From the NCBI GenBank assembly GCA_020721965.1, contig DYLS01000032.1, positions 1 through 45,355 on the forward strand: a stretch of DNA of 45,355 nt, read 5' to 3'. Shown here one piece after another: positions 11,330 to 43,667 of this stretch; the stretch's first letter is position 1; each line of letters begins with the position of its first letter. The notes below the pieces were generated by a model, which saw only the letters and a list, made by a program, of their open reading frames with translations, was not told the origin of the DNA and ran no database searches. A program made the position numbers and the translations under genes. Source of the stretch: Blastopirellula marina (lineage in GTDB: Bacteria; Planctomycetota; Planctomycetia; Pirellulales; Thermoguttaceae).

Positions 11330-11430
11330 CGCTGGGCGGATGAAGTTATGGCACGCCCCGGCGAGGATCGGCCATGCCGCGGGACAGGCCATCGGTTGTG
11401 ACGGGCCGTGCCGCTCGGAAAATCTCGATC

Positions 11431-12846
11431 ATGCGTGTTCCCTCTCCTTTCCGGTCATCGGCCACGGTCGTCTTGATTGTGGCCGTGATCGTTCGGGCAG
11501 GCGTGCTTTGGGGGGTGCCGGGCGGTCTGGCGGAGGACGTGGACAGCTACGCCGCCGTGGCCGATAACCTGCTGCATCACGGCGTGTTCGGGTATGGCGA
11601 CCGGGCGACGGCGTTTCGGCCCCCGCTTTACCCCATCCTATTGGCTACCTGCCGCTCCACCGGCTTGCCGTGGATTGGGAGCGCCGGAGCCGCCCATCTG
11701 TTGCTCGCGCTGGCGACCGTAGCGCTCAGCATCGGTTTGGCGCGGCGTTTGGGGTTAGGCGAGCAGGCCTGGATCGCGGGGCTGCTCGTGATCTGCGATC
11801 CCATTTTGCTCTTCCATTCCCGACTATTGATGACCGAGACGCTCAGTGCCGCGCTGGTGACGGCCGCCTTGTGGATGGCGACCGAGGCCGCCCGCCGCAG
11901 CACCGGCCCTGCGTGGTTCCTGGCTGGGGTCTTGTTGGGTCTGAACGCCTTGACGCGGCCCACCTTCCTGCCGTGGATTGCGGTTGCCGTTGCCGTCGTG
12001 CTCATCGTGGGACAGCACGCCGCATGCGCGGAATGCCTCCCACCGCGGCCAGGCGAAAGGCGCTCGGCAAGGCTTTTCCCCAGCACATGGGCGTGGCGGG
12101 AAGCGGCCCTGACGGCCCTGGGGGCCTTGGCCGTCTTGTCCCCCTGGGCCGCGCGAAACGCCATCCTTTTCGGCCGACCCATTCTCGGTACGACGCATGG
12201 CGGTTATACGCTTTATCTCGCGAACAATCCGGATTATTACGCGTACTTGTGGGCCGGGAGACGGGATCGCGTGTGGGACTCGGCAACGTTCGATCGCCAT
12301 TGGAAAGACGAGCTGCACGCAGCCCACGTAACGGACGAGCCTGCCGCCGACCGGCTGGCCTACTCGTTGGCGCGGCGAACCATCGCGACCCAGCCCGGCA
12401 CCTTCCTGCGAGCGTGCGTGCAGCGGCTGGCGTCCTTTTGGGGCGTTTTGCCGCATGACGTGCTGGGCGAAGAGTCCGTCTCGAGGCGTGCGGCGCGATA
12501 TCTGGTGGCGGTCTTTTACACCATCGAGTTTGTGGCGGCGATTTGCGGGACCTGGTCCCTTTTTGTGGGACGGCGGGAGGGATGGCACGGTGCAGGCCAT
12601 CCGCCGCATCGGCCGGATCCCGCCGAAGCAGGTTCTCGGGGCGGGGGACGCGAAGGAAAGATCGCCGTGTACTGGGCTGCGGCCGCGGTGCTCATCCTCA
12701 CCTTGGCCCACCTCTTTTACTGGACGAACATGCGGATGCGGGCGCCGATCATGCCCGTGATCGCGATAGCCGCCGCGGCCGGGATGCGCCTCCCTGTAAA
12801 ACCCTTCGCCCCCCTGTCATTTCGAGCGAAGCGAGATACCCTTTGA
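11431..12846 (+). CDS. GT39-like membrane glycosyltransferase
   Basis: Polytopic membrane protein of the ArnT/PMT glycosyltransferase superfamily, which transfers sugars from polyprenyl-phosphate carriers on the outer face of the inner membrane. The first helix is followed by an acidic loop (EDVDSYAAVADNLLHHGVFG), then AFRPPLYPILLA and HSRLLMTETLSAALVTAALW. These are typical of the family, with the early acidic residues expected to be catalytic. About eight or more hydrophobic segments follow. The chosen start, ATG at 11431, has GGAA nearby; the ORF is open from 11374. The last ten or so codons (FRAKRDTL and stop) lie inside the 12-bp-TIR element at 12814-12948, so the native C-terminus has probably been replaced by element-derived codons. 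Acceptor and donor are unknown. Confidence 0.85.
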   Translation: MRVPSPFRSSATVVLIVAVIVRAGVLWGVPGGLAEDVDSYAAVADNLLHHGVFGYGDRATAFRPPLYPILLATCRSTGLPWIGSAGAAHLLLALATVALSIGLARRLGLGEQAWIAGLLVICDPILLFHSRLLMTETLSAALVTAALWMATEAARRSTGPAWFLAGVLLGLNALTRPTFLPWIAVAVAVVLIVGQHAACAECLPPRPGERRSARLFPSTWAWREAALTALGALAVLSPWAARNAILFGRPILGTTHGGYTLYLANNPDYYAYLWAGRRDRVWDSATFDRHWKDELHAAHVTDEPAADRLAYSLARRTIATQPGTFLRACVQRLASFWGVLPHDVLGEESVSRRAARYLVAVFYTIEFVAAICGTWSLFVGRREGWHGAGHPPHRPDPAEAGSRGGGREGKIAVYWAAAAVLILTLAHLFYWTNMRMRAPIMPVIAIAAAAGMRLPVKPFAPLSFRAKRDTL

Positions 12847-12948
12847 AGCGCGGTACCTTGCGAAGGGAAAAATTTTCTCGGCCGGGGTAAGATTTCTCCT
12901 TACTGGCGCTCGTCGAAATGGCATGGCTGGGGCACATCGAAATGACAG
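12814..12948. mobile_element. MITE-like element with perfect 12-bp terminal inverted repeats
   Basis: CTGTCATTTCGA at 12814-12825 and TCGAAATGACAG at 12937-12948 are exact inverted copies bounding 135 bp. Inside there are further pieces of the same type (GAGCGAAGCGAGA near 12823-12836 and GCTCGTCGAAATGG near 12908-12922). No transposase is encoded. No clear target-site duplication is visible at the outer ends. The stop codon of the GT39-like gene falls within it. Confidence 0.7.
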
Positions 12949-12966
12949 TCCGTTCCAGACCTAAGG

Positions 12967-13088
12967 AATCGTTTGAAGAACCGTAAGGAATCGTCTGAAC
13001 GCCCCTTGAGAACTACTGAGCAAGCCTCAAAAGACTCTGAGCAAGCCTCAGAACACTCTGAAAAGGCCTCAGGAACGTCTGAACGATC
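12967..13088. repeat. Degenerate 21-bp tandem repeat array
   Basis: Copies of CTGAR recur at exact 21-base steps at 12995, 13016, 13037, 13058 and 13079, with a diverged copy (TTGAA) at 12973. The best-conserved unit contains CTGAGCAAGCCTCA, itself an imperfect hairpin. Because 21 is a multiple of three, the array reads as a heptapeptide repeat (TEQASK-like) on the plus strand, but there is no ribosome-binding site, so I treat it as non-coding. It lies between the TIR element and the higBA promoter. Confidence 0.75.
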
Positions 13089-13120
13089 TCCGTTGTTTCC
13101 CAAACTTTTCCGTTATAGTG

Positions 13121-13137
13121 CAGCCGTGAACGGTTAC
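13121..13137 (+). repeat. 17-base recurrent motif, copy 1
   Basis: CAGCCGTGAACGGTTAC occurs here and again, identically, at 43619-43635. A near copy without the first bases is at 41857-41868, and a reverse partial copy is at 7107-7117. Here it lies 33 bases after the tandem array and about 50 bases before the higBA -35 box. Confidence 0.7.
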
Positions 13138-13161
13138 GTGGGATCCCGGCAAGAATGGCAA

Positions 13162-13244: not shown

Positions 13245-13625
13245 ATGCGGGTGATCTCGAAGGCAAGGCTGCGGGCGTTCTGGGAGGAACCGGGGCACGA
13301 GGACGCCGAAGGGCCATTGCGGGCGTGGCACACCCATGTGAACAGCAAATCGGTTTCCTGGCATTCGTGGGGAGATGTCATAGCCGACTTTGCCACATCT
13401 AACCTCGCCGGGAACTGCGTGGTCTTCAACATTGGCCGAAACAAGTACCGCCTGGTGACCCGCATCCTGTATCCAAGCCAAAGGGTCTTCATCCTCGCAG
13501 TGCTGACGCACGCCGAACACGACAAGGGCAGATGGAAGGAAACATGTGGCTGTTTTGAGCCAGCTCCGAGACCCAAGAGCGAACTGTCAAAGAAGTCTCG
13601 CGAATGGCGACGCAAAGGACACTGA
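13245..13625 (+). CDS. higB: HigB-type mRNA interferase toxin
   Basis: Type II toxin of the HigB (RelE/ParE-like) family, expected to cleave translated mRNA at the ribosome. Family signatures are NCVVFNIGRNKYRLVTRILYP, VFILAVLTHAEHDKGRWKE and the N-terminal RLRAFWEE. The length of 126 residues is longer than the usual ~100 because of a basic tail rich in Lys, Arg and Ser after the core. The start ATG at 13245 has AGGAG six bases upstream. The higA antitoxin starts three bases after the stop, so the two are co-translated from the promoter just upstream. As in other higBA loci, the toxin gene comes first. Confidence 0.92.
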   Translation: MRVISKARLRAFWEEPGHEDAEGPLRAWHTHVNSKSVSWHSWGDVIADFATSNLAGNCVVFNIGRNKYRLVTRILYPSQRVFILAVLTHAEHDKGRWKETCGCFEPAPRPKSELSKKSREWRRKGH

Positions 13626-13628
13626 TCG

Positions 13629-14060
13629 ATGGCGACCAAGACGAAGTTTGGGCTCAAGCGAAAGGACCGAGATTCCTATTTGGAACTCGTGTTGGCATTC
13701 CCGCTGGCTTCCATCAAGACGGACGAGCATTTGGCCGAAGCGCAAAAGGTCATGGATCGCCTGCTTACCAAGGGCAAGCTCGATGACGGCGAAGAGATGT
13801 ACCTCGATGCCCTCAGCGATCTGGTCGCCACCTACGAAGGCGTTTACCACGCCATCGAACCCGCCTCTGATGCCGAGATGCTGCGGCACCTGCTGGAAGC
13901 CAAGGGAATCACGCAGGCACAGCTCAGCCATGAGACGGGGCTGGCCAAGTCTTCGATCTCCGAAGTGCTGGCGGGCAAGAAGCCTTTCAGCCGCAAGATG
14001 ATTCGCAAGCTGGCGGACTACTTCTGCGTGGACGTGAGTGTGCTGGCGGCGAATTTGTAG
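13629..14060 (+). CDS. higA: HigA-type antitoxin, HTH transcriptional regulator
   Basis: Antitoxin partner of HigB and autorepressor. The N-terminal half (residues 1-75) is acidic and helical and should contact the toxin. The C-terminal half is an XRE-type helix-turn-helix: LLEAKGITQAQLSHETGLAKSSISEVLAGKKPFSRKMIRKLADYF, split here by the two recognition-type helices ITQAQLSHETGL and KSSISEVLAGK. The length of 143 residues matches the COG5499 type. The gene begins three bases after higB. The two GTTCG palindromes upstream of higB are its likely binding sites. Confidence 0.92.
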   Translation: MATKTKFGLKRKDRDSYLELVLAFPLASIKTDEHLAEAQKVMDRLLTKGKLDDGEEMYLDALSDLVATYEGVYHAIEPASDAEMLRHLLEAKGITQAQLSHETGLAKSSISEVLAGKKPFSRKMIRKLADYFCVDVSVLAANL

Positions 14061-43535: not shown

Positions 43536-43610
43536 ACAAAGATGCCTGCGTCAATCCTGGACAACGATATCCGTGTCAATCTTGGACAAAGATACCTGCG
43601 TCAATTTTGG
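43536..43610. repeat. Three exact-period 25-bp tandem repeats
   Basis: Three units of 25 bp, 43536-43560, 43561-43585 and 43586-43610, share ACAAAGATRCCTGCGTCAAT with one to four changes each. Immediately after the third unit comes TTACAGCC and then the 17-base motif. No spacers, so not a CRISPR. Confidence 0.85.
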
Positions 43611-43618
43611 TTACAGCC

Positions 43619-43667
43619 CAGCCGTGAACGGTTACTCCTTGCCGCCCGCCCAGCGACTGATTCTAAT
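43619..43667 (+). promoter_or_regulatory. Candidate promoter with adjacent 17-base motif
   Basis: The motif CAGCCGTGAACGGTTAC (43619-43635) ends three bases before TTGCCG (43639-43644). That is followed after 17 bases by TCTAAT (43662-43667), a reasonable sigma70-type pair reading toward the ThuA gene. The leader to ATG 43799 is then about 125 bases. The close placement suggests the motif is an activator or repressor site; this is inferred. Confidence 0.5.

Follow-up and report, generated by a model that had tools for sequence, protein, structure and literature searches.

Tagged REPs are sorted into a GTAG and a CGTC super-family in the sections of PMC3733652 (Di Nocera et al.) used here, according to which CGTC is altered to TGTC in many repeats. 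The same sections state that no transposase adjoins the CGTC repeats; what moves them is left open there, and a broad range of transposases is suggested. A precedent for a REP within a MITE comes from Coxiella burnetii, where the part of PMC5896051 available to us describes a GTAG REP inside a MITE. The window analysed here, that is the whole stretch of 45,355 nucleotides from a draft genome of Blastopirellula marina (4.95 Mb, 380 contigs, 97% complete), contains a MITE copy with a TGTC-tagged hairpin pair at the end of a glycosyltransferase gene. Our joint reading, to which we assign a probability of roughly three in four, is that of an IS66-ended MITE with more than 100 copies, which was truncated on its left side into the end of a gene and whose TGTC hairpin pair is selected as folded DNA. 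The locus itself is modest, and it is the distribution and the structure of the hairpin that form the interesting part. Gene and element are located as follows:

11374..12846, + strand: PMT_2 / GT39-like glycosyltransferase gene (translation, Pfam)
12779..13137, + strand: left-truncated MITE assigned to the IS66 type, model positions 28-273 of 273 (profile search)
12844..12846, + strand: TGA serving as the stop of the gene, within the element
13124..13137, + strand: right TIR, CCGTGAACGGTTAC
13138..13145, no strand: octamer GTGGGATC, expected place of the right copy of the 8-bp target duplication (position deduced from the 8-bp duplications of other copies)

The earlier note had taken two inverted 12-mers for the termini of a 135-bp, MITE-like element without its own transposase. 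The pair as such is exact, with CTGTCATTTCGA at 12814-12825 (+) and its exact inverse at 12937-12948, and at zero mismatches the window contains no further copy of CTGTCATTTCGA. Similarity of the aligned copies, however, extends well past the 135 bp, and the real ends, GTAACCGTTCACGG... and ...CCGTGAACGGTTAC, enclose 224-434 bp in the 32 two-ended copies. An imperfect 21-bp direct repeat (12903-12923 / 12927-12947) includes the right 12-mer in its second copy, so that this 12-mer is not an element end. The inverted 12-mers are the outer edges of an internal pair of TGTC-tagged hairpin arms; as transposon ends they are ruled out by the aligned copies, by the two-ended copies with duplications and by the bounds of the profile. 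What holds of the MITE-like character is that the element is multi-copy and too short for a transposase gene, while 135 bp had to be given up as its extent. The parts of the hairpin pair are:

12814..12948, no strand: TGTC-tagged hairpin arms forming an inverted pair, with part of the right arm duplicated
12815..12840, + strand: left (short) hairpin arm (sequence, aligned copies)
12889..12923, + strand: right hairpin arm, the long one, in opposite orientation to the left arm (sequence, aligned copies)
12927..12947, + strand: second copy of the outer 21 bp of the right arm, containing the right 12-mer (direct repeat D3)

In the window copy the 3' side of the left arm has decayed and reads GAGATACC, compared with GAGAAATC in other copies.

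In a BLAST search of the own genome with a 143-bp query, 40 of 167 candidates were scored and gave 59 matches. The 21-mer core TGTCATTTCGAGCGAAGCGAG occurs there at 147 places with at most two mismatches (reversed-pattern control: 0), and the 14-bp end at 121 exact places (control: 0). The fetched loci hold 55 distinct copies, of which 16 lack the right end, seven lack the left end and 32 are two-ended; whole copies start with GTAACCGTTCACGG or with a variant beginning GTAGTCGTTCACAGGG, and the right end is CCGTGAACGGTTAC. The eight bases flanking the two-ended copies on the left and on the right agree at a mean identity of 0.76, compared with 0.27 for mispaired copies (n = 32). A duplication of 8 bp with at most one mismatch is present in 19 of these 32 copies (mispaired controls: 0.2%). 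For lengths of 4-7, 9 and 10 bp the agreement is near background (0.24-0.32, compared with 0.24-0.26 for mispaired copies). The element thus clearly generates an 8-bp target duplication. With its 14-bp TIRs GTAACCGTTCACGG / CCGTGAACGGTTAC, this duplication, the lack of an own transposase and its many copies, it shows the features by which a MITE is recognised.

The own genome also harbours a second MITE family, which shares these ends and carries no hairpin. It comprises seven elements of 150-171 bp (L041, L055, L087, L089, L090, L099 and L100), two of which, L099 and L100, exhibit perfect 8-bp duplications; two rows for L007 in this survey are one element with two possible ends. Three loci (L025, L026 and L055) share an insert of about 115 bp (TTGTGGTGCCC...) after the hairpin arm, suggestive of an additional repeat or of a subfamily, and a different interior (CCCCCGCGAACTAGGGGGATGCTA...) stands behind the left part or end of the element in L058 and L110. 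At 43605-43635 the window contains an isolated right end, 31 bp long (E 2.7e-4), of the family to which the element at 12779-13137 belongs; it ends in CCGTGAACGGTTAC and is preceded by unrelated sequence.

The window copy was delimited with a profile of 32 other copies, which were picked by slightly different rules than the 32 two-ended ones. It matches at 12779-13007 (E 1e-43) and 13054-13137 (E 1.7e-16), lacks the first 27 model positions including the left TIR, and retains the right TIR only; the left partner of GTGGGATC was lost together with the left end of the element. Its right half has grown by short tandem units at 12962-13057, namely two 16-mers (12962, 12984) and two 21-mers (13016, 13037). 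A distant-mode search of the plasmid collection gave no match. To the right of the element, beginning some 100 bp away, a HigB-type toxin gene (PF09907) and a gene resembling a helix-turn-helix antitoxin occupy 13245-14060 of the window, and a BBP7 porin gene (PF07585) is also among the Pfam matches.

The glycosyltransferase gene, whose PF13231 match of 26.8 bits is barely above the cut-off of 26.1, indeed ends inside the stretch between the 12-mers, as had been claimed: from 12814 onward it takes ten codons and its stop from there. The whole contribution of the element amounts to the last 16-21 codons and the stop. V475-L490 and the stop are element-derived, the last 16 codons matching the element closely letter for letter, and G470-P474 are ambiguous owing to the likeness of gene and element at GGGATGCGCCTCCC / GGGATTCTCCTCAC. 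For comparison, proteins from 13 of 19 relatives' loci were used, which are 35-42% identical (BLASTP). The alignment with them stops at ...AAG(M/L) or a like motif, and the tails beyond it differ in length and sequence; the protein of the window continues there with RLPVKPFAPLSFRAKRDTL. The element-derived SFRAKR tail is shared by none of the 13, which bears out the proposed replacement of the C-terminus. Relatives do not conserve the tail that was replaced, and the glycosyltransferase may therefore well still work, judging from these alignments. Among the 55 copies only that in the window is entered in the sense direction by an ORF of at least 200 codons, which is the PMT_2 / GT39-like gene; five further candidate ORFs of at least 200 codons, all of them predicted, enter copies from the other side. 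For annotation, this means that gene ends reading SFRAKR... can be repeat-derived instead of belonging to a conserved protein.

The proposed insertion at the 3' end of the gene stands insofar as the element supplies the gene end. It was not a plain insertion, as about 27 left positions are missing; with the left TIR gone as well, a deletion or a one-sided event must have joined the gene to the interior of the element. The simplest route to the fusion, though not a proven one, is a deletion at the likeness of GGGATGCGCCTCCC and GGGATTCTCCTCAC. An element copy would have inserted at the gene's end or directly after it, and a later deletion, perhaps at this short likeness, would have taken the left TIR together with the gene's own last codons, after which the reading frame would have run through the element to the TGA at 12844-12846. 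Alternatively, the left end might have diverged rather than been deleted, or the element might have moved one-sidedly, with the tail of the gene being older than the element. The blurred border at GGGATGCGCCTCCC / GGGATTCTCCTCAC and the variable length and sequence of the relatives' tails would suit this idea, yet we consider it unlikely: the residues encoded left of 12779 align with the relatives' conserved ...AAAG(M/L) and so leave no room for a left end, and the close match of the last 16 codons to the element speaks against an older tail. Even less probable, indeed hardly to be expected, is a contig misjoined at a repeat. The fragmentation of the draft into 380 contigs, with several copies of the element at contig ends, would suit such an error, but misjoins normally occur at a long identical stretch, whereas the gene here meets the interior of the element over a short, imperfect likeness. 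Deletion into the gene end thus remains the preferred reading of the junction.

For the IS66 transposase (PF03050), four genomes of the genus and 81 genomes of the family, those four included, were searched. One of the four and 44 of the 81 are positive; in the own genome (G000), a draft of 380 contigs and 97% completeness, PF03050 is absent. Of 30 loci examined in genomes of this bacterial family, five have the transposase match enclosed by inverted 14-mer ends at a distance of 1.49-1.56 kb. Both ends are exact in L321, which contains a single ORF of 473 aa, and carry one to two mismatches each in L111, L326, L327 and L329. A single-ORF subgroup is what we take to be the closest IS66 type. 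An 8-bp target duplication is usual for the IS66 family. A clean one was found at none of the five end-bounded loci, which counts against the IS66 reading. Filing the element as an IS66-ended MITE is nevertheless well supported, and we infer that an IS66-type DDE transposase would have mobilised it in trans. No autonomous partner was found in the own genome, and an old non-autonomous derivative does not require one.

Pairing within the hairpin was analysed in 174 distinct copies from 136 IMG/VR loci, with a pattern in which three stem pairs and the loop could vary and the rest of the stem was fixed. Identical contexts were counted once, here as well as in the counts of 139 and 56 copies given below; another covariation count kept all copies. 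Watson-Crick pairs occupy the three free positions in 164, 161 and 163 of the 174 copies, compared with shuffle means of 122, 88 and 102 (maxima 136, 107 and 120), and G.T pairs fill five of 522 cells, compared with about 76 in shuffles. GNA loops are found in 146 of the 174 copies, and the 139-copy count gave the same. GA stands opposite GA in 55 of 56 copies under a separate pattern with both stem-interrupting positions free. In the longer form of the arm (21 copies) 80 of 84 cells are paired and 16 of 21 loops are GNA; at two of its four pairs some shuffles equal the observed count. All these hairpin counts are counts of sequences, related ones being treated as independent events. GNA loops are a DNA speciality, and both the GNA triloop and the tandem sheared GA pair count as very stable elements in hairpins of DNA. 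The repeat is therefore read as selected as single-stranded DNA; the covariation of the stem, the scarcity of G.T pairs and the GNA loops suggest selection as folded DNA. The hairpins may be bound by a single-strand DNA-binding protein, or they may aid transposition when the strands part at replication. With the GNA loop and the covariation at hand, a function as DNA hairpin becomes directly testable.

These data also bear on the idea that the repeat is an RNA element at gene 3' ends, a terminator or mRNA stabiliser whose structure is kept for that purpose. The two arms do fold strongly together (z -5.1 for the consensus pair, -2.3 for the 135 bp of the window), the window copy sits at a gene 3' end, and published REPs are, in the sections of PMC3733652 mentioned above, mostly downstream of genes. 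However, the few G.T pairs and the many GNA loops are at odds with RNA, as is covariation that lies within each single arm, and Rfam yielded no match at gathering score in the window, so that an RNA role is rather unlikely. What speaks against the DNA reading is that arms on their own fold no more stably than shuffles (z 0.51, 0.17 and -0.45 for three arm sequences, nearest-neighbour), together with the stem positions fixed in the patterns and the counting of related sequences as independent. It is likewise very doubtful that the pair is REPIN-like, moved by a Y1 (RAYT) transposase, with the long TIRs being secondary. The TGTC tag, the hairpin and the inverted pairing resemble REPs, and Y1 transposase genes are present in 27 of 29 hairpin-bearing genomes; the own genome has one. 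Yet the locus of the own Y1 gene contains no hairpin, only two (L293, L295) of 30 fetched Y1 loci, a subset of the matches from hairpin-bearing genomes, contain it at up to three mismatches, and the 8-bp duplications are placed at the outer TIRs. A cognate RAYT was accordingly not recognised, and a RAYT origin was rejected. That the repeat does not flank a transposase is a trait of the CGTC-REPs, and its scarcity at Y1 genes repeats what those sections of PMC3733652 report for CGTC repeats. The own Y1 gene is flanked by separate direct repeats, seen as the peptide SVSWWWLSWWWRWVMVAYNRSASTSGLRPRLVVARPRIVIASGG in two ORFs (L222, 1084-1300 and about 1830-1990), and belongs to a different REP-like system.

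Selection as folded DNA, our preferred reading of the hairpin, concerns a sequence that is spread far beyond this genome. The exact 28-mer arm TGTCATTTCGAGCGAAGCGAGAAATCTT occurs in at least 110 stretches of the GTDB collection and spans, by record titles and among the matches listed, about ten phyla. Titles of the 80 stretches listed of these at least 110 name Deltaproteobacteria/Desulfobacterales, Hydrogenedentota, Gammaproteobacteria, Nitrospirae, Elusimicrobia and Omnitrophota, as well as Anaerolineae, Ignavibacteriae, Prevotellaceae, KSB1 and SAR324/Lambdaproteobacteria; as most of the cross-phylum records are MAGs, single cases may be misbinned. Within the own order the spread is patchy, with the hairpin in four of 117 genomes. 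Exact hairpin matches in the same family number 25 in G087, four in G102 and one in G007, and the listed ones are of the CT/AG and CC forms, compared with the TC/GA form of the own genome.

The 80 listed stretches hold 94 arm copies, 50 of which have an inverted partner arm; 43 without a partner and one too close to an end were left out. Around 21 of the 50 paired copies an inverted repeat better than those of 30 shuffles was found, where about two would be expected by chance; four of the 21 (L122, L156, L167, L175) were set aside because the flank match was a further copy of the arm, a low-complexity stretch or a different palindrome. The TIRs around the hairpin pairs differ, being TAATTAGTATCTGTTGCGGAAA in Nitrospirae, TTAGTGTCTGTCCGAAAA and TTTCGTAAAAAGTC in Desulfobacterales, and further GGCTGTATCAAAAGCCCCAA, CTAAGGAAGCTCTGATTAAG and others. 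Almost the whole element is covered at 22 places in the Nitrospiraceae genome G142, among the matches listed. The Desulfobacterales genome G148 contains 13 distinct hairpin pairs in three TIR types (7, 4 and 2, flanks read by eye) and genome G145 eight pairs in at least four TIR types; as the loci of both were brought in by two queries, these proportions are no census. Near-identical hairpin pairs ride in MITEs of several different TIR types, even within one genome. It is conceivable, at somewhat less than even odds, that the TGTC/ATTNN/GA-GA/GNA hairpin is a pan-bacterial module which is captured or exchanged as cargo by unrelated transposon families, kept as single-stranded DNA and probably recognised by a conserved protein of replication, repair or transposition. 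If so, it would explain how CGTC-type palindromes that lack their own transposase have spread, and it would act as a common helper in the transposition of MITEs. Searches of the openly licensed literature listed no report of this hairpin in MITEs with differing TIRs, nor did they find the hairpin sequence as letters; in the portion of a review of prokaryotic MITEs covered here (PMC10969869), REP appears in two reference entries only and IS66 is absent.

Compared with known systems, the element is closest at its ends to IS66 insertion sequences, with which it shares the GTAACCGTTCACGG ends found at IS66 transposase loci of the same family and the 8-bp target duplication. It differs from them in its 224-434 bp, the lack of a transposase and the hairpin pair as cargo. 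With REPINs, as far as the excerpt of PMC3116915 describes them, it has in common two inverted hairpins that form one unit in many copies; unlike these, no RAYT adjoined it in the loci examined, and long TIRs and 8-bp duplications bound the unit as a whole. QMITE2 of Coxiella burnetii is likewise a MITE with a REP inside, its target duplications being 7-11 bp, but the available part of PMC5896051 describes a GTAG REP in one species, whereas the TGTC hairpin extends across several phyla and resides in MITEs with more than one type of TIR. Rickettsia palindromic elements, as cited in the sections of PMC3733652 used, are also palindromic repeats read in frame in protein genes, yet they lie inside genes, and here it is a gene end that is affected, with a deletion. 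The same sections give the CGTC-REPs a CGTC tag with TGTC as a variant, a stem starting with AT, inverted dimers, several phyla and no adjoining transposase, all of which the hairpin shares, its tag being TGTC. Within our set, T precedes GTC in 54 of 56 copies; the AT start was fixed in the patterns and hence seen rather than tested. In contrast to the 8-9 bp stems and loops of 4-5 described there, the hairpin has a 5-bp stem, tandem GA/GA, two further bp and a GNA triloop; its tail is CTT/TCT rather than CCA, mostly continuing with TC, TT or TG after AATC, and it lies within MITEs of different TIRs. As stem, loop and tail are unlike, it resembles the CGTC-REP family and is not filed in it. 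DDE-type MITEs look like a carrier of CGTC-REP-like hairpins, and the IS66-ended MITEs described here, together with the further TIR types, at least three of them within single genomes of Desulfobacterales, fit the broad range of transposases suggested in that part of PMC3733652.
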